A stretch of DNA of 20,846 bases from a virus. Positions 6,321-13,786 of this stretch are shown in pieces. Under the pieces are notes generated by a model. It was given only the letters and a program-made list of their open reading frames with translations. It did not search any database and was not told the DNA's origin. The position numbers and the translations under genes are program-made. The stretch covers positions 1 through 20,846 of the IMG/VR virus record IMGVR_UViG_3300028188_000035. One strand, 5' to 3'. Position 1 is the stretch's first letter, and each line of letters starts with the position of its first letter.

Positions 6321-8849
6321 TTAAAAAAACCTTTCAATTGAAGTTTTTTTATCAATGGGCATATCCCATTTCATACTCTCATAGAACAACTCTATTTTCT
6401 TCTTTAGGGCTTTATCAAATAACTTATCCCTATCTATATATTGAGCTACGAAATCCATAATCTCTTTAGGATCATCATAACCCTTGTAAGCGATAGCATC
6501 GATATTAAATGGATTGTCTTTCAGATAAACCCATCTAATTTTACTACTATTTCTAATCTGCTCGTGATTATTGACTTTAAAATGTTTTAACAAGTCATTA
6601 TAGATAACTGATGCCTTAACGTGGACTGGTGCACCCTTTTCCATCTCGGTAAACATAGTCTTACTACCAAAACCATGTTTTGTCTTTTTCTTCGTGTATT
6701 TCTTTATACCCTTGACACCACTCGGTAAAGATATGTTTGTAATATCATGGTCGTTTAGACCCTTTTTAAATTCTAAAATGAATTCATCAATTCTTTCTTT
6801 TGGAACTTTAAAAAGAATAGCTTTCAATACCTTAGTCATGAAATCACGAAATGCTGGTGGGAATGAACTACGGACAATATCTAATCCCTTAACATCTAGC
6901 TTCTCACATGGAGTACCACCATCATTAATAATCCATTGACCATATCGTTTTTTAGTAACCCAAAAAGCAGCCTTAGCAATCATTTCTTGTTTAATCTCAA
7001 ACCTATGTCCTTCATGTATGTTTAAGAAGTTTTTAGCAAAGTAATCATATGATTTGTTAATATATATTTGAACCTCTGAAGCAATATCAAGAATTTGTTC
7101 TGTCATAAACTTCTCATCTTTAACATCAGCATTTGGGAATCTATCCTTAACTAATGGTAAAGCACTATAGAATACTGAATCCGTATCCGTGTAGATACAA
7201 TAGTCTTTATCGGTTTTCAATATCTTATTATAGTAGTTATTGGTAACTTTCTCCGTGAACTGAATTAACTTCACTCCAGTAGTCGTTGTACCCTCGGCAT
7301 TATCTATATCATAAAACCTAAATACCGATAACCCCAAGACACCATATAAACTGTTAAGTAAAATCTTTTGAACGTGCTGTCTTCTATTGAAATGACTACT
7401 TAATTCTTCATCACCCGCTTTACCATATTTTTTAGACAATGCTCTATATTCAACTCTTTCATCAAACCACTTTTCCAAGATAGCTGGTATAACACCTTTC
7501 TTGGTTAAATCATATATAACTCCGTTGGAAGATATTGAGACATTATTTTTATTGAAGAAATCTTTCAACTCACCATTACTGAATCGTCTAATTATCTTAC
7601 CGTTCTTTTCTACGGAATATGTCTTTGTGACTCCTTTAATAAACTCTTCCGCATCCCAACCGTTAATCTTACCTATCTTGGTTTCGGGAGACATATTCAA
7701 ACTCATAATGATACTTGGATACATAGAAGTTAAATCCAAATCAAATACCCAATCATAACAACCAGGTTCAGGACTCTTTACGTAAGCACCACTAAACCTA
7801 CCATCCGAACCATCATAACTAACATCGTAGGCTTTACTCGGAGCGACTAAATTTAAACTTTTTAAATAAACTAACATCGCACCTTCAATATAACGAGAAC
7901 TAAAGTAAACCTCTTCATAAGGTATCCTACCTAAATGACATACACCCTTTGCTAAATCAATTAATTTTAATTTATCATCAAGAGCCTTAACAATCTTAAC
8001 GTCATTCAAGTTATATTCAATAAACTTATCAATATCATCTCTGTATAAATCATCTAATGTGCCTTCATACTCAACCTTACCAATTCCAACCTCAATAGTT
8101 CCTATATGGTCTAATCTATAACTTGATTGCTGAGTAAAGGTGAACTTTTTATATAAATCCATATAATCCAAAGCACTAACACCAGCAATTCGATACATCT
8201 TTTTGTTTGGGTTATACTTTACGATTTGAATCGGTGAAAGGGCATTGGCAAACTCCTCACCCAAGACTTTAGATATTCTATTATATAAATAAGGTACATC
8301 AAACCCATTTATGTTCCAACCAGTAATTATAGTCGGTTTAACATTCATCCAATATTGTAAAATAGCTTTTAATAACTCTATCTCGGTCTTGAAGAATTGA
8401 ATATCAACCCCATCCTTAATATTACCTTTACCTTCACCTAAAACATAAACTGAATACTCTCCATTATGTTTAGTATAAAATGCTACTGATGTGATTTTAT
8501 TACTAGCTTTTGCTGGTTCAGGGAAACCATCCGTGACTTCTACTTCAATGTCAAAGAATAGTTCTCTGTGATTTTTAGATGGTTCGTCTGAATCTGAATA
8601 TCTATCTAAAAGTACTCTCGTATCTAATGGTATATCCGATTCGAATACTTTGCCTGTTTTAAAATCTTCTTCTGTCCAATACGTTACTTTCTTTAACTTA
8701 TCTCCGTAAATAGAACGATATTGACCACTTCCGTCTTTTACGTAAGCGTAATTCTTAAATATAAAATTTTGATAACCAGCAACATCATCCCATAGATGAA
8801 CTTCTACTTGATTACCACCTCTCTTTTCACACCACAAATTTTGATAAAT
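6321..8849 (-). CDS. 43: family B DNA polymerase, gp43-like, with probable ATT start
   Basis: Replicative polymerase with proofreading. Numbered from the ATT start (842 aa): Exo I FFDIEVE (about 98-104), Exo II TGWNINGFD (176-184), Exo III YNLNDV (279-284), motif A DLDLTSMYPSII (370-381), motif B KILLNSLYG (495-503), motif C YTDTDS (553-558) and a TKKRYG block. All catalytic aspartates are present. The C-terminus KTSIERFF is a likely clamp-binding tail, like the hydrophobic end of T4 gp43. No ATG or GTG exists near the N-terminus. AAGGGAG lies six bases before ATT at 8847-8849, and the homologous core begins there (YQNLWCEKR). A TTG at 8904-8906 is in frame but overlaps the promoter's -35 box. 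The start is the only uncertain part. Confidence 0.93.
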   Translation of the reverse strand: MYQNLWCEKRGGNQVEVHLWDDVAGYQNFIFKNYAYVKDGSGQYRSIYGDKLKKVTYWTEEDFKTGKVFESDIPLDTRVLLDRYSDSDEPSKNHRELFFDIEVEVTDGFPEPAKASNKITSVAFYTKHNGEYSVYVLGEGKGNIKDGVDIQFFKTEIELLKAILQYWMNVKPTIITGWNINGFDVPYLYNRISKVLGEEFANALSPIQIVKYNPNKKMYRIAGVSALDYMDLYKKFTFTQQSSYRLDHIGTIEVGIGKVEYEGTLDDLYRDDIDKFIEYNLNDVKIVKALDDKLKLIDLAKGVCHLGRIPYEEVYFSSRYIEGAMLVYLKSLNLVAPSKAYDVSYDGSDGRFSGAYVKSPEPGCYDWVFDLDLTSMYPSIIMSLNMSPETKIGKINGWDAEEFIKGVTKTYSVEKNGKIIRRFSNGELKDFFNKNNVSISSNGVIYDLTKKGVIPAILEKWFDERVEYRALSKKYGKAGDEELSSHFNRRQHVQKILLNSLYGVLGLSVFRFYDIDNAEGTTTTGVKLIQFTEKVTNNYYNKILKTDKDYCIYTDTDSVFYSALPLVKDRFPNADVKDEKFMTEQILDIASEVQIYINKSYDYFAKNFLNIHEGHRFEIKQEMIAKAAFWVTKKRYGQWIINDGGTPCEKLDVKGLDIVRSSFPPAFRDFMTKVLKAILFKVPKERIDEFILEFKKGLNDHDITNISLPSGVKGIKKYTKKKTKHGFGSKTMFTEMEKGAPVHVKASVIYNDLLKHFKVNNHEQIRNSSKIRWVYLKDNPFNIDAIAYKGYDDPKEIMDFVAQYIDRDKLFDKALKKKIELFYESMKWDMPIDKKTSIERFF

Positions 8850-8876
8850 AACTAACTCCCTTATTTCCGATACCTC

Positions 8877-8906
8877 AATATACAACAAAAACCCTATACA
8901 AGTCAA
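8877..8906 (-). promoter_or_regulatory. sigma70-type promoter for DNA polymerase gene
   Basis: Minus-strand TTGACT (8901-8906), an 18-base spacer and TATATT (8877-8882). The predicted start lies near 8870, about 8 bases before the AAGGGAG ribosome binding site of the polymerase gene. This gives a very short leader and rules out the in-frame TTG at 8906. The -35 lies in the loop of the hairpin at 8887-8914. It shares GTATATT with the other two promoters but not their A-tract. Confidence 0.65.
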
Positions 8907-8958: not shown

Positions 8959-11697
8959 TTAAAAATTAACAGATAGTCCTACATTGTAGTATCTTGGTGT
9001 TCCCAAGAATACTTCAGCGTTATGAGCTAAGTGAAGTTTATCACCATACCCATTGTACTGACTATTGTCAACTGCGTCTTGAACATAAACACCATCAAGA
9101 GCATTAAAGATATGAGCACTAAGCGTCATATCATAACCACCAATTTCTGGTAGTTTGTATGCTATATGTAAGTCAAGTTTTGAATAGCCAGGAGCTTTCC
9201 AAACTTGAGTTTCATCGGCACCATCTTCATCGACTTCACGAGAATCGGGAGACCAATCAGCGTAATTATCATCATACATTTTATACAAACCCTGTATGCT
9301 AAGTCCTTCCAATGGTTTAAGTGTTAAACCACCAACATAAGCTGTTTGTGGTTGGTCACCGACCATTAGACCATCAAGAGCGTACTCATACTGAGTTGTA
9401 GTTTGACCGACAACTTGGTTGTCGTCATTATACTCCATCTCTTGATAATCACCTTTGGCATCACCATCGAACTGCCAAGTACCTTTACTGAATACTAAAT
9501 TCAAGTCAACCATTTCGTGAAGAGCAATTTTAGACTCTACTTCAAAACCAGTATGACTTTGATTTACACCAGTTAGATAAATGACATCTGTATCACCTGA
9601 ATCTCCAGCACCTGTTTCAACAGATTTGGTAAGGTTTCTATCTTTCCATTGAGTATTATATGAACTCAATTTAAGATCAACATTACCACTTGCATACTTT
9701 CCACCAATTTCGAAACTTGTAAATTTCTCATTGATTGGGTTGGTAGCAACTGTACCATCAAATTTGATTACATTATCTAAGATGGGTGGCTTCTCAACAT
9801 ACCCACCATTAATAAATGCAGACATTCTATCATCAAGGTTATAAACACCACCACCTTTCACTTGGAAAGTTGTAATAGCATCAGCCGAAACTTTAGAAGC
9901 ATCAACAGCAAAATGGTCAAGATAAGAATATCCTATTGCGGATACTCCACCCATTCCATAAAGGTTGAATTTGTCAGTAGAATATTTACCTTGTAAAAAT
10001 CCACCAATCCAATCTACGGTTGTTTCATTATGATAAGCGATAATATCACCTAACATAACTTTCTTCCCATCAGTAGCATTTTTATCGGCGTAATCAACAT
10101 AGTAATCACCACCTAATAAATCACGAACTTCACGTGCGTGTTCTATACCAGCAGTTCGCCAATCAATACCAACTTGAACTTCAAGTTCATCTGATACATC
10201 ATAGTTTAATTTAGAAATCAAACCATAAGTGTTTTGACGATTGATTGAATTACGAAGAATACCAGTTGAACGGTTTTCAGTATCAGAGAAAGAAGAATCT
10301 ACATTAGCAGAGTTCTGAGCTATCTCAGCATTCCAATCCCAAGTCCAAGGAGAACTTGCATACCAAGCACTTCCTTCAACTGCGGGTTGTCTTGATACAC
10401 TACCATAAGTTCCAGTTCCACCACCTGAACCACCACTCCAATAAGCAACAGTACTCAAACGAGTCTTGTCATTTATAGTTAAGAAATGGTTTAGGTTAAC
10501 TAATGGTTTATGGAAAAAGTTCTCTCTTTCATTTAAGAAATCAGAACTATACCTATCGGTTGTTTTAGCACCATACATATACCAATACTGCTGGCCTTTG
10601 TATGAAGCGTCAATGGGTGCAACATTTTGATTGAACAACCTACCTGGTTCATGTTCGAACTTCTCACCAACAGCAAAGGCTTCAGCATCATAACCATCAA
10701 TATCACCAGCCAACTCTTGAGAGTAAGTAGCAATATTTTGCTTATATAAGTTCTGTCCGTGTCTTTGTGGAGCTCCAACCGCATACAACTCAAATCGTTG
10801 GTCATCACTTACGGCATAAGAACCACCGAAGTAGTAAGCCCAAGCATCTGTCCAAGTCCCATCAATAAATCCATCACCAGTCTTACGAACAATAGTTCCA
10901 CTAAGTGCTAGTTTATCATTGATTAGACCAGAGTTATAATTCAAAGTAGATTTAAGGAATCCACCTTCACCTACTTCTTGTTTAACTTTACCACCCTTCT
11001 CGTGTTGAGCGGGATCGGTAATGATGTTCATAGTTCCACCAATTGATGGTGTAGCTAGATTTACAGCTGATAGACCTCGTTGCATCTGAATTGATTTCGT
11101 AGCATCTCCTACTCCATCCCAATTAGACCAATAAACCCATCCGTTCTCCATATCATTCTGAGGAACACCATTTATCATAACGGCTACATTTCGCTGGTTA
11201 AACCCACGAACATTGATACGAGCATCACCCGCACCACCACCTTGTTGAGTAGCATATACACTTGGCGTAGTATTAAGAATCATTGGAATGTCTTGACTAC
11301 CAAGACGAACTTCCATTTCTGCTTTATTTATCGTAGTGTAAGCTACAGGTGTTGTTTCATCAGCACGGGAAGCCAAAACTTCTAATGCTGACATAGCAAG
11401 TACATCAATCACCAATGTGAAATTAACACCTACATTTTCTTCGCCCACAACAACTTCCTCCGAAGCTGGTGTGTGTCCAATGAATGAAGTTGTTATAGTA
11501 TAAGTCCCTGGTGCCACTTCGACACGATAAGAACCGTCATCCGAAGATACAGCTCCCAAATCAGTTCCCTCTACTACAACATTTGCTCCAGCCAAAGGTG
11601 TATCTCCATTATCAACGATTCCTGAAATTGATTGTCCGAAAAGGAAAATCGGTAGGAACATCGTTAACAATAAAGTTATTAGATTACATGTTTTCAT
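8959..11697 (-). CDS. TonB-dependent outer-membrane receptor (complete, cellular type)
   Basis: A complete 912-aa receptor. Residues 1-22 are a signal peptide ending FLFGQ. Residues 23-95 form a carboxypeptidase-D regulatory-like domain (PLAGANVVVEGTDLGAVSSD). About 115-228 is the plug (INVRGFNQRNVAVMINGVPQ; QRGLSAVNLATPSIGGTMNI). About 235-912 is the beta-barrel, ending in Phe. Such proteins import bulky nutrients such as siderophores, cobalamin or glycans across the outer membrane, powered by host TonB-ExbBD. This N-terminal layout is common in Bacteroidota and related FCB bacteria. No SusD partner is present. GC is about 42 % in samples against about 30 % in nearby phage genes, suggesting transfer from a host. 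AGGAG seven bases before the ATG marks the start. The substrate cannot be told. A chimeric assembly is unlikely, since both junctions look natural, but not excluded. Confidence 0.95.
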   Translation of the reverse strand: MKTCNLITLLLTMFLPIFLFGQSISGIVDNGDTPLAGANVVVEGTDLGAVSSDDGSYRVEVAPGTYTITTSFIGHTPASEEVVVGEENVGVNFTLVIDVLAMSALEVLASRADETTPVAYTTINKAEMEVRLGSQDIPMILNTTPSVYATQQGGGAGDARINVRGFNQRNVAVMINGVPQNDMENGWVYWSNWDGVGDATKSIQMQRGLSAVNLATPSIGGTMNIITDPAQHEKGGKVKQEVGEGGFLKSTLNYNSGLINDKLALSGTIVRKTGDGFIDGTWTDAWAYYFGGSYAVSDDQRFELYAVGAPQRHGQNLYKQNIATYSQELAGDIDGYDAEAFAVGEKFEHEPGRLFNQNVAPIDASYKGQQYWYMYGAKTTDRYSSDFLNERENFFHKPLVNLNHFLTINDKTRLSTVAYWSGGSGGGTGTYGSVSRQPAVEGSAWYASSPWTWDWNAEIAQNSANVDSSFSDTENRSTGILRNSINRQNTYGLISKLNYDVSDELEVQVGIDWRTAGIEHAREVRDLLGGDYYVDYADKNATDGKKVMLGDIIAYHNETTVDWIGGFLQGKYSTDKFNLYGMGGVSAIGYSYLDHFAVDASKVSADAITTFQVKGGGVYNLDDRMSAFINGGYVEKPPILDNVIKFDGTVATNPINEKFTSFEIGGKYASGNVDLKLSSYNTQWKDRNLTKSVETGAGDSGDTDVIYLTGVNQSHTGFEVESKIALHEMVDLNLVFSKGTWQFDGDAKGDYQEMEYNDDNQVVGQTTTQYEYALDGLMVGDQPQTAYVGGLTLKPLEGLSIQGLYKMYDDNYADWSPDSREVDEDGADETQVWKAPGYSKLDLHIAYKLPEIGGYDMTLSAHIFNALDGVYVQDAVDNSQYNGYGDKLHLAHNAEVFLGTPRYYNVGLSVNF

Positions 11698-11704
11698 TCA
11701 TAAT

Positions 11705-11760
11705 CTCCTGTTAGTTAGTACATTAAGGCACATTTTTCTACAGGTGTGCCAGCTGCCTGT
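11705..11760 (-). promoter_or_regulatory. candidate H-type pseudoknot / riboswitch-like leader of the receptor gene
   Basis: On the minus strand, ACAGG (11756-11760) pairs with CCTGT (11740-11744), and GGCACA (11745-11750) pairs with TGTGCC (11727-11732). Each stem has an arm in the other's loop, with a 5-base first loop and an A-rich 7-base last loop (AGAAAAA). This is H-type pseudoknot geometry. CCTGT can instead pair with the Shine-Dalgarno ACAGG at 11707-11711. This suggests translational control of the receptor. I do not recognise the motif as a known riboswitch class; the aptamer would be only 34 bases, far too short for a cobalamin riboswitch. Confidence 0.4.
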
Positions 11761-11773
11761 AAGTCTTTGTATT

Positions 11774-13786
11774 TTAATTTGAATACTCCTGGTCATCGTT
11801 GTCGCCGGCTATAGGAATAATTTCACAGGTATCAGAATTACAAAATTTATCTATTTCTGCTTCTTCATTTTTGATTACACCGAAAGATAACTTACCTAAC
11901 TTACCCACCATCTTATCATACTCTTCTTCGGTAATAGCTTCATAAGGCATTTGTTTGTAAGCACCTAATTCATGCCGTGGTAATAACGATATACCCTTTA
12001 ATTTATACTGAAAGTAATTAAGTACATGTGGTAGTTGGTCAGCTTCTGTTTTAGGATCGAATGTAGCAGTACAACTAACTTGGTTGTCTGCCCAATGTCT
12101 TTGTAGAAAAGCTGCTAAACTGAATTGTTCCCATATTGATAATTCACCAACCGTTCTAATACCCTCACCGACATCAACTGGAACCTCTACAACCATAGTT
12201 GTATCTTCCGCACCGAATGCAGGTTCTAATGGGTAGTTAGCTTTCTTCAATGGTTCTAATAGTTCTGACTGTTTTGATAATCTCATTCTTCTTATATAAA
12301 ATCTTGATTCTGGATAATGCATTCCTGGAGTAGCACCAACCAATAATGAAACTGTACCACTTGGTTTAACTGATGTTGTTTTAATTGACTTTGGAACAGC
12401 AAACCAATCACTATATTGGTTATCCCATTCTTGTATTGTATCATATCCCGTCTCCAACCAAGTTCTTAATTCTTCCATTCCATTTTTAGTAATAAACTGA
12501 GCAACACCACTTACACTACATCCAATCCGTCTATTTCTCAGCATAACTCTATTGGTTTCAGGCCAATGTGTTCTACCTAATGTTACGGTCTTGGCATACA
12601 GATAAGCGTATTTTAATGTTCGTTGATAATCTTCTAATGAATCATGGTTGGCTGGAAATGTTTCTACGAGGCAACATAGCTCATATGATTCTAATGATTG
12701 TTCCAGACATGGATTACCACCCATAACTCTATGGTCTTTATTATCCCCACCATTCTTCATACGAGAATACTTTCTCATATTTTCTAACCAAGCAAAACCA
12801 GGCTCACCATTATCCACGATTCGTTTACATACATCAGTATAATCCATACCCAACTCGGCAAATATACTATTATTACTTGTCCATCCATATTGTTCTCTAT
12901 GTGGGTTAACTTTATAATTCTTTAAGTCTAAATATTCTTCATCGTCTGGATCACCGAACACAATCTCTGCTGTTCGTCTTACGTTCCCCGCCACGACACA
13001 TTTACCAATAAGGTTCATTATATCTACAATAGTTGTTATGGTGATTGGTTCTCCTACATTTATATTTAATACTTTTCTTATTTCTTCATGTATTTCTTTT
13101 AGTGGTTCGTGGCCACTTGAGACTCCACCAAAACCTTTGATTACGGCCCCCTCTGGTCTAATTAATGTGTAATCAAATTGAACTTCGGCAGAAGCATGAA
13201 AATAACTCTCTAACAATAACTTTAATGATTCCACCCAACCTTCACGAGTATCGGGTATCACATATTCTTCTATACCTCTATTTGGGTTGGGTAATTTAAT
13301 CATAACCTCACCCGCACCCTTTGTATCAAATCCAACACCCACACCTAACATACTCGCATCCATCAAAAATGTAAATGGTTTGGAATAGTCATCTTTGATT
13401 GTTTTAGTTGATACGAATGCACAATTATTTAGGGCGGCGTACAAACCTTTTTCTTCGGTTATGGCTGTTCCCATAGCCCAAAGACCTCGGCCGGGTGGTA
13501 AAAACTTCATATTAAACATTCTGTCATACATCTCTTGTGCTGACCTTTGAGCTTGCCACGGATTCCACCCCAATTGATGTGTATCAATGTGATTTTTTTG
13601 CATAGAGTAAGTTCCCTCTACGACTCTTTTAATGGTTTCCCACCAACGTTCATTTTTTCCATCTGCTTTAATTCTTGAATAGGTTCTCATATAAACTAAT
13701 TCACCTAATCCGTTAAAACCGAATGGTACTTTCTTTCTTTTGTATTTGTTAATAAAATTTTCCGATAAAACAAATTTCTTACTCAT
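11774..13786 (-). CDS. nrdJ: class II (adenosylcobalamin-dependent) ribonucleotide reductase, monomeric RTPR type
   Basis: A 670-aa enzyme that reduces ribonucleotides to deoxyribonucleotides, using adenosylcobalamin to make the thiyl radical. Visible features: FLPPGRGLWAMGT (95-107); NNCAF with redox Cys122; NPCLEQ with radical Cys360 and catalytic Glu362; ELCC with the partner redox cysteine (371 or 372); SVKPSGTVSLLVGATPGMHY; and a C-terminal pair, Cys649 and Cys654, that re-reduces the active site. The pattern and single-chain layout match Lactobacillus leichmannii RTPR (739 aa). No R2-type or glycyl-radical subunit is present. AGGAAAG six bases before the ATG fixes the start. A 129-base leader precedes it, with only a weak 5-bp hairpin (13864-13879). 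The reductant could be the thioredoxin-like protein at 19689-20300. It supplies dNTPs for the replication genes around it. Confidence 0.93.
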   Translation of the reverse strand: MSKKFVLSENFINKYKRKKVPFGFNGLGELVYMRTYSRIKADGKNERWWETIKRVVEGTYSMQKNHIDTHQLGWNPWQAQRSAQEMYDRMFNMKFLPPGRGLWAMGTAITEEKGLYAALNNCAFVSTKTIKDDYSKPFTFLMDASMLGVGVGFDTKGAGEVMIKLPNPNRGIEEYVIPDTREGWVESLKLLLESYFHASAEVQFDYTLIRPEGAVIKGFGGVSSGHEPLKEIHEEIRKVLNINVGEPITITTIVDIMNLIGKCVVAGNVRRTAEIVFGDPDDEEYLDLKNYKVNPHREQYGWTSNNSIFAELGMDYTDVCKRIVDNGEPGFAWLENMRKYSRMKNGGDNKDHRVMGGNPCLEQSLESYELCCLVETFPANHDSLEDYQRTLKYAYLYAKTVTLGRTHWPETNRVMLRNRRIGCSVSGVAQFITKNGMEELRTWLETGYDTIQEWDNQYSDWFAVPKSIKTTSVKPSGTVSLLVGATPGMHYPESRFYIRRMRLSKQSELLEPLKKANYPLEPAFGAEDTTMVVEVPVDVGEGIRTVGELSIWEQFSLAAFLQRHWADNQVSCTATFDPKTEADQLPHVLNYFQYKLKGISLLPRHELGAYKQMPYEAITEEEYDKMVGKLGKLSFGVIKNEEAEIDKFCNSDTCEIIPIAGDNDDQEYSN

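Follow-up and report, generated by a model that had tools for sequence, protein, structure and literature searches.

The window (the whole stretch of DNA that we analysed, 20,846 nt) is a 20.8-kb virus record with T4-like replication genes, and its main open reading frames all lie on the minus strand. The RNA element described here sits in a 76-nt gap between two of these genes. The upstream gene, for a class II (B12-dependent) ribonucleotide reductase, is context and is outside the element; the downstream gene encodes a TonB-dependent receptor.

11774 to 13786, minus strand: adenosylcobalamin-dependent ribonucleoside-triphosphate reductase gene (TIGR02505, E 1.9e-105; phrog_367)
11727 to 11760, minus strand: H-type pseudoknot of 34 nt with a second loop (L2) of 0 nt (sequence, same fold in homologous leaders, covariation, core length)
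11710 to 11726, minus strand: A-rich spacer of constrained length between the pseudoknot and the Shine-Dalgarno sequence (distance statistics, base composition)
11705 to 11709, minus strand: Shine-Dalgarno sequence AGGAG of the receptor gene (sequence)
11681 to 11706, minus strand: predicted start-codon hairpin, AGAUUAU...GUAAUCU (predicted fold, start-region statistics, permutation)
8959 to 11697, minus strand: TonB-dependent receptor gene, 912 amino acids (Pfam, NCBIfam, model and PDB fold matches)

The matches from Pfam, NCBIfam, and fold searches give the receptor protein a signal peptide, CarbopepD_reg_2, Plug, and a barrel. The quality of its AlphaFold model is mediocre (mean pLDDT 62.6). 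Fold searches with this model matched receptors for siderophores, PQQ, and metals alike, at 10-15% identity. Bacterial homologues of the receptor, from the class that contains the Flavobacteriales, are up to 49% identical. In the phage collection, we found no close relative of the receptor (the best identity is 43% in a short stretch, or 29% over the full length), no close relative of the reductase (best identity 49%), and no cultured relative of these viruses. In IMG/VR, a TonB-dependent receptor gene lies beside a class II reductase in hundreds of contigs from a T4-like marine virus group. (The window also has a DNA polymerase open reading frame at 6321-8906. Its listed start is a TTG and its N-terminal stretch looks untranslated, so the true start is probably further downstream.)

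On the minus strand from 11760 to 11727, the pseudoknot RNA reads ACAGG-CAGCU-GGCACA-CCUGU-AGAAAAA-UGUGCC. Its parts are:

11756 to 11760, minus strand: 5' strand of the first helix (P1), ACAGG, which pairs with 11740-11744
11751 to 11755, minus strand: first loop (L1), CAGCU (consensus CAGNN), with C and A invariant and G nearly so
11745 to 11750, minus strand: 5' strand of the second helix (P2), GGCACA, which pairs with 11727-11732
11740 to 11744, minus strand: 3' strand of P1, CCUGU (pairing variants, covariation)
11733 to 11739, minus strand: A-rich third loop (L3), AGAAAAA, with an invariant AAAA directly before the 3' strand of P2
11727 to 11732, minus strand: 3' strand of P2, UGUGCC (pairing variants, covariation)

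The two helices (5 bp and 6 bp) are fully paired and interlock within 34 bases, with an A-rich loop, just as the original prediction had them; there are zero bases between the helices. When the 76-nt leader was shuffled 4000 times with its dinucleotides preserved, such a pseudoknot arose 4 times, and this is the one G+C-rich pseudoknot of its kind across both strands of the window. The nested fold energy of the leader is ordinary (z = -0.68). Folding a single sequence could therefore not decide whether the pseudoknot is real, and the case rests on homologous leaders.

We collected these leaders in two sets. For the first, we scanned IMG/VR with both the receptor and the reductase and obtained 159 loci, including 78 distinct receptor leaders, and the pseudoknot is present in all 78. 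For the second, we used diverged receptors in two more scans and searched the resulting 92 loci with a covariance model. The model matched 91 of them, once per locus (at the remaining one, L368, the contig ends within the leader). So the compact H-type fold proposed for the window is shared by its homologues. Of 73 distinct versions of the core, 69 have a length of 34 nt.

The helices are maintained by compensating changes, which the original prediction had named as a check for both stems. Among 117 distinct sequences, 98.0% of the cells are paired, versus 91.6% in shuffles and 18-57% with the partner strand slid, and the double-changed cells in the two helices number 80 where 14 are expected. 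P1 occurs as ACAGG/CCUGU, AUAGG/CCUAU, ACUGG/CCAGU, GCAGG/CCUGC, CCAGG/CCUGG, CCUGG/CCAGG, and GCUGG/CCAGC, with pair switches from CG to UA and from AU to UA. P2 occurs as GACACA/UGUGUC, GGCACA/UGUGCC, GACGCA/UGCGUC, AGCACA/UGUGCU, and AACACA/UGUGUU, with switches from AU to GC at two positions and from GC to AU at one. On the receptor tree, the minimum number of changes per pair state ranges from 5 to 22. (This count presumes that leader and receptor share a common history; recombination could inflate it.) The outermost pair of P1 is unformed in 23 of the 117 sequences. Some unpaired bases are near-invariant, namely CA(G) in L1 and AAAA in L3, and the pairs at the helix junction are invariant. 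The pseudoknot is under selection as a pseudoknot.

We also asked which gene the pseudoknot goes with, and several results show that it belongs to the receptor gene. First, we scanned with a DNA pattern of the knot that was independent of the receptor. In nearly every contig that was long enough, the knot lay about 60-80 nt ahead of a matched receptor start, and the receptors behind these knots are of the same family as the one in the window. (The pattern match at L173 is a chance match.) Second, each of 21 long virus records with the receptor has exactly one copy of the pseudoknot, at the receptor; the other genes of these viruses have none. There are zero copies in a 131-kb record that has this reductase but lacks the receptor. 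Third, where the reductase stop codon and the receptor start are about 0.5-1.1 kb apart, the knot stays with the receptor. Fourth, the pseudoknot decays where the receptor gene has been lost: two loci (L258, 5119-5280, and L271, 7884-8044) keep the leader and the first receptor codons without the rest of the gene, and at both of them P2 has acquired a mismatch.

These results also bear on whether the knot is a recoding pseudoknot (for frameshifting or readthrough) at the end of the reductase gene, or part of a conserved leader peptide. In most genomes the knot does start shortly past the reductase stop codon. But the distance from this stop to P1 is not constant (6 to 52 nt), the knot persists where the stop is 0.5-1.1 kb from the receptor start, and it was not found at reductase ends that lack the receptor. 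Furthermore, no reading frame stays open across the core in more than 45 of the 73 versions. We give recoding or a leader peptide practically no chance. (An upstream open reading frame from the AUG in AAAAAUG was also rejected; it is in frame with the receptor about a quarter of the time, and many copies stop early.)

We also scanned the genomes of 84,980 cellular species with the pattern. Only two hits were true, and both are contigs with the viral reductase and the receptor (L332 and L342). L332 is from the Flavobacteriales metagenome-assembled genome NAT55 and L342 is from the Euryarchaeota metagenome-assembled genome SP3014; in both, the contig holds the reductase, the knot, and the receptor. 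As these are contigs of this virus group, the two genomes are either contaminated with viral sequence or include an infecting virus. Across 295 genomes of the class that includes NAT55, the covariance model matched in the genome of NAT55 only, and the leaders of three bacterial homologues of the receptor (48-49% identity) have no such knot. In short, the bacterial genomes that we searched have no such pseudoknot outside of virus-derived contigs.

The region between the knot and the gene is constrained in length rather than in sequence. From the end of the knot to the AUG is 28.9 nt on average (standard deviation 2.4), and 28-30 nt in 101 of 146 leaders, while spacers of equal length share only 55% identity in their first 12 nt. 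The distance from the knot to the reductase stop codon is more variable (standard deviation 8.0, range 6 to 52 nt). Thus, the knot keeps its distance from the receptor start codon. Counting back 28-30 nt from a start codon leads to roughly where an initiating 30S subunit has its upstream edge. The spacers are 53% A and 6% G, and the Shine-Dalgarno sequence mostly follows 16-19 nt after the end of the knot. (A GGA motif resembling a Shine-Dalgarno sequence precedes the start in the analysed leaders, where it was also a criterion for selecting them.)

In the window, the CCUGU strand of P1 is complementary to ACAGG at the Shine-Dalgarno sequence (11711-11707), and the nested minimum-energy fold of the leader uses this pairing, with CCUGUAG paired to CUAACAGG. 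On this basis, the original prediction had proposed a switch in which CCUGU alternates between the pseudoknot and a blocked ribosome site. The complementarity is there, but the pairing is not conserved across leaders. ACAGG is present at the Shine-Dalgarno sequence in only about 5 of 128 leaders, and it does not change together with P1. When P1 becomes CCAGU, CCAGA, or CCUAU, the Shine-Dalgarno sequence does not follow with a compensating change. Nor is there more complementarity than chance would give, as 463 of 500 leader permutations reach the observed value. Sequestration of the Shine-Dalgarno sequence is refuted as a conserved mechanism and seems very improbable as an account of this family. 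The pairing is a peculiarity of this window, where a switch local to its leader is possible.

More generally, when we compared the strands of the pseudoknot with the spacer, the start region, the beginning of the coding sequence, and the upstream sequence, conserved complementarity was marginal at most.

A second structure lies around the start codon. The longest stem there averages 5.1 bp for the receptor genes versus 3.6 bp for 521 other starts with a Shine-Dalgarno sequence in the same viruses, and the minimum free energies of the start region are -6.8 and -2.7 kcal/mol, respectively. The positions at -3 and +9 form a pair in 88 of 101 sequences (A-U in 44, U-A in 41, and C-G in 3). Random re-pairing of the two arms of the hairpin gives shorter stems (observed mean 5.13, permuted maximum 4.74). 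We conclude that the start-codon hairpin exists in most leaders. Its 3' arm is within codons 3-6. The codons CGU AAU CUN (R-N-L), inside the signal peptide, are nearly fixed at the nucleotide level. We saw no coupling between the pseudoknot and the start hairpin.

On the other side of the knot, UUCACAUAC sits 0-21 nt 5' of it in 65 of 119 leaders (for instance L032), and 108 of the 125 occurrences of UUCACAUAC in 2.6 Mb of virus sequence, which is partly overlapping, are at the knot. The window has no clear copy. This element may be an RNA-processing site, a protein site, or part of a promoter. We rejected an alternative hairpin between UUCACAUAC and the 3' strand of P2: UUCACAUAC is as frequent with UGCGUC, which could not pair with it, as with UGUGUC.

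Given its constant place before one gene and its upkeep by paired changes, the pseudoknot is almost certainly a control element for making the receptor. How it would act is less clear. The reading that we favor, tentatively, is that the leader acts in cis as a translational operator for the viral receptor gene and responds to a trans-acting factor in the manner of gene 32 of phage T4. The 34-nt pseudoknot would be a compact recognition site, placed near the upstream edge of 30S loading; after it come an A-rich spacer that would be unpaired, the Shine-Dalgarno sequence, and a weak start-codon hairpin. A factor (most likely a viral or host RNA-binding protein) would grip the knot and so govern the loading of the 30S subunit on the spacer and the opening of the start hairpin. 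We infer translational control, the existence of a factor, its protein nature, and the sign of its effect. An operator is the most economical account of an element that serves one gene, has a fixed distance to the start codon, and was not found outside of virus-derived contigs in the cellular genomes that we searched; this last result also fits a partner that is specific to the virus.

In T4, the operator of gene 32 is a pseudoknot of about 28 nt, and the RNA on its 3' side, which contains the ribosome site, is less structured (PMC535899). The leaders described here share with the gene 32 operators of T4 and RB69 a small pseudoknot with less structured RNA and the ribosome site on its 3' side, the same orientation relative to the start codon, and a T4-like phage as the carrier. 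They differ in the gene, which encodes a TonB-dependent receptor instead of a single-stranded-DNA-binding protein; in the knot, which has 34 nt, helices of 5 and 6 bp, and an L2 of zero; in the extra hairpin at the start codon; and in that we saw no UUAAA repeats in the leaders that we read. Also, no such pseudoknot is found upstream of the virus's own gp32-like gene, which excludes autoregulation of the gp32-like protein. That this protein might be the partner of the knot is only a guess, and the operator itself is putative.

The knot could also act alone, without any factor. It might protect the 5' side of the receptor cistron, mark a processing site, or insulate the spacer, which would then stay single-stranded as a stand-by site for the ribosome. 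The knot does lie between cistrons of a run of genes on the same strand, the spacer downstream of it is rich in A and poor in G, and we found no alternative pairing that would form a switch. However, for mere stabilisation there would be no need to fix the spacing from the start codon, to keep CA(G) and AAAA near-invariant in the loops, or to hold the core at 34 nt, and no other gene of these viruses uses the knot. We consider a purely structural role possible but doubtful.

A third reading is a small-molecule riboswitch, in which a metabolite tied to the substrate of the receptor would bind the knot and alter the initiation of translation. The compact knot with its conserved loop residues and invariant junction pairs would suit this, and so would control of an uptake receptor, a feature that fits protein operators equally well. 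The adjacent B12-dependent reductase makes a ligand linked to cobalamin conceivable. There are precedents for candidate riboswitches in marine T4-like cyanophages: manA (RF01745) and wcaG (RF01761) are candidate cis-regulatory RNAs upstream of host-like metabolic genes (PMC2864571). But we found no expression platform (the Shine-Dalgarno sequence is outside of the knot, and there is no conserved competing pairing or coupled terminator) and no match to a riboswitch in Rfam. Also, the knot controls a single gene family, we found no cellular genome that uses it, the fold search did not resolve a substrate for the receptor, and having zero bases between the helices would leave little room for a ligand. 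A riboswitch seems unlikely, and slightly less likely still is its most specific form, a new minimal class of 34-nt viral riboswitches in which a cargo-linked metabolite, possibly cobalamin, would time receptor synthesis in the infected cell. As judged from the sequences, the original label of riboswitch is only a possibility and looks premature.

Comparisons with known RNAs suggest that the element has not been described before. Four leaders (the window, L203, L080, and L044) searched at E up to 10, and the window at the gathering score, have no match in Rfam 15, in keeping with the original prediction of a possible new motif. The preQ1-I and SAM-II riboswitches share the H-type pseudoknot topology, and preQ1-I has an A-rich third loop. 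In both of them, the knot includes the ribosome site, and preQ1-I has an unpaired L2 with a cytosine that pairs with the ligand. In contrast, our leaders have the Shine-Dalgarno sequence 16-19 nt downstream of the knot, and the homologues that we read have an L2 of zero and hence no unpaired L2; they also lack matches to the Rfam models for preQ1-I (at E up to 10), SAM-II, and SAM-V. Compared to manA and wcaG, which gave no Rfam match either, this is a much smaller, single pseudoknot with one gene family. Another small pseudoknot, the STAXI motif, has been reported near genes for single-stranded-DNA-binding proteins and other DNA-handling genes, in two or three tandem repeats (PMC2864571). The knot described here is instead present as a single copy per genome. 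In the literature that we searched, we found no paper that joins this motif, a TonB receptor, and these phages, and the paper on B12 and virioplankton has no mention of TonB.

Overall, the pseudoknot is a real and selected RNA element, apparently undescribed, and it defines a new family of pseudoknot mRNA leaders. This family, which is supported by covariation and is absent from Rfam, occurs in uncultured marine viruses that are apparently abundant, and it is small enough for a direct test by probing and reporter assays. These viruses carry a gene for an outer-membrane receptor and very probably control it. Such control would imply a timed role for the receptor in infection, which may be to feed the B12-dependent reductase or to alter the cell surface.
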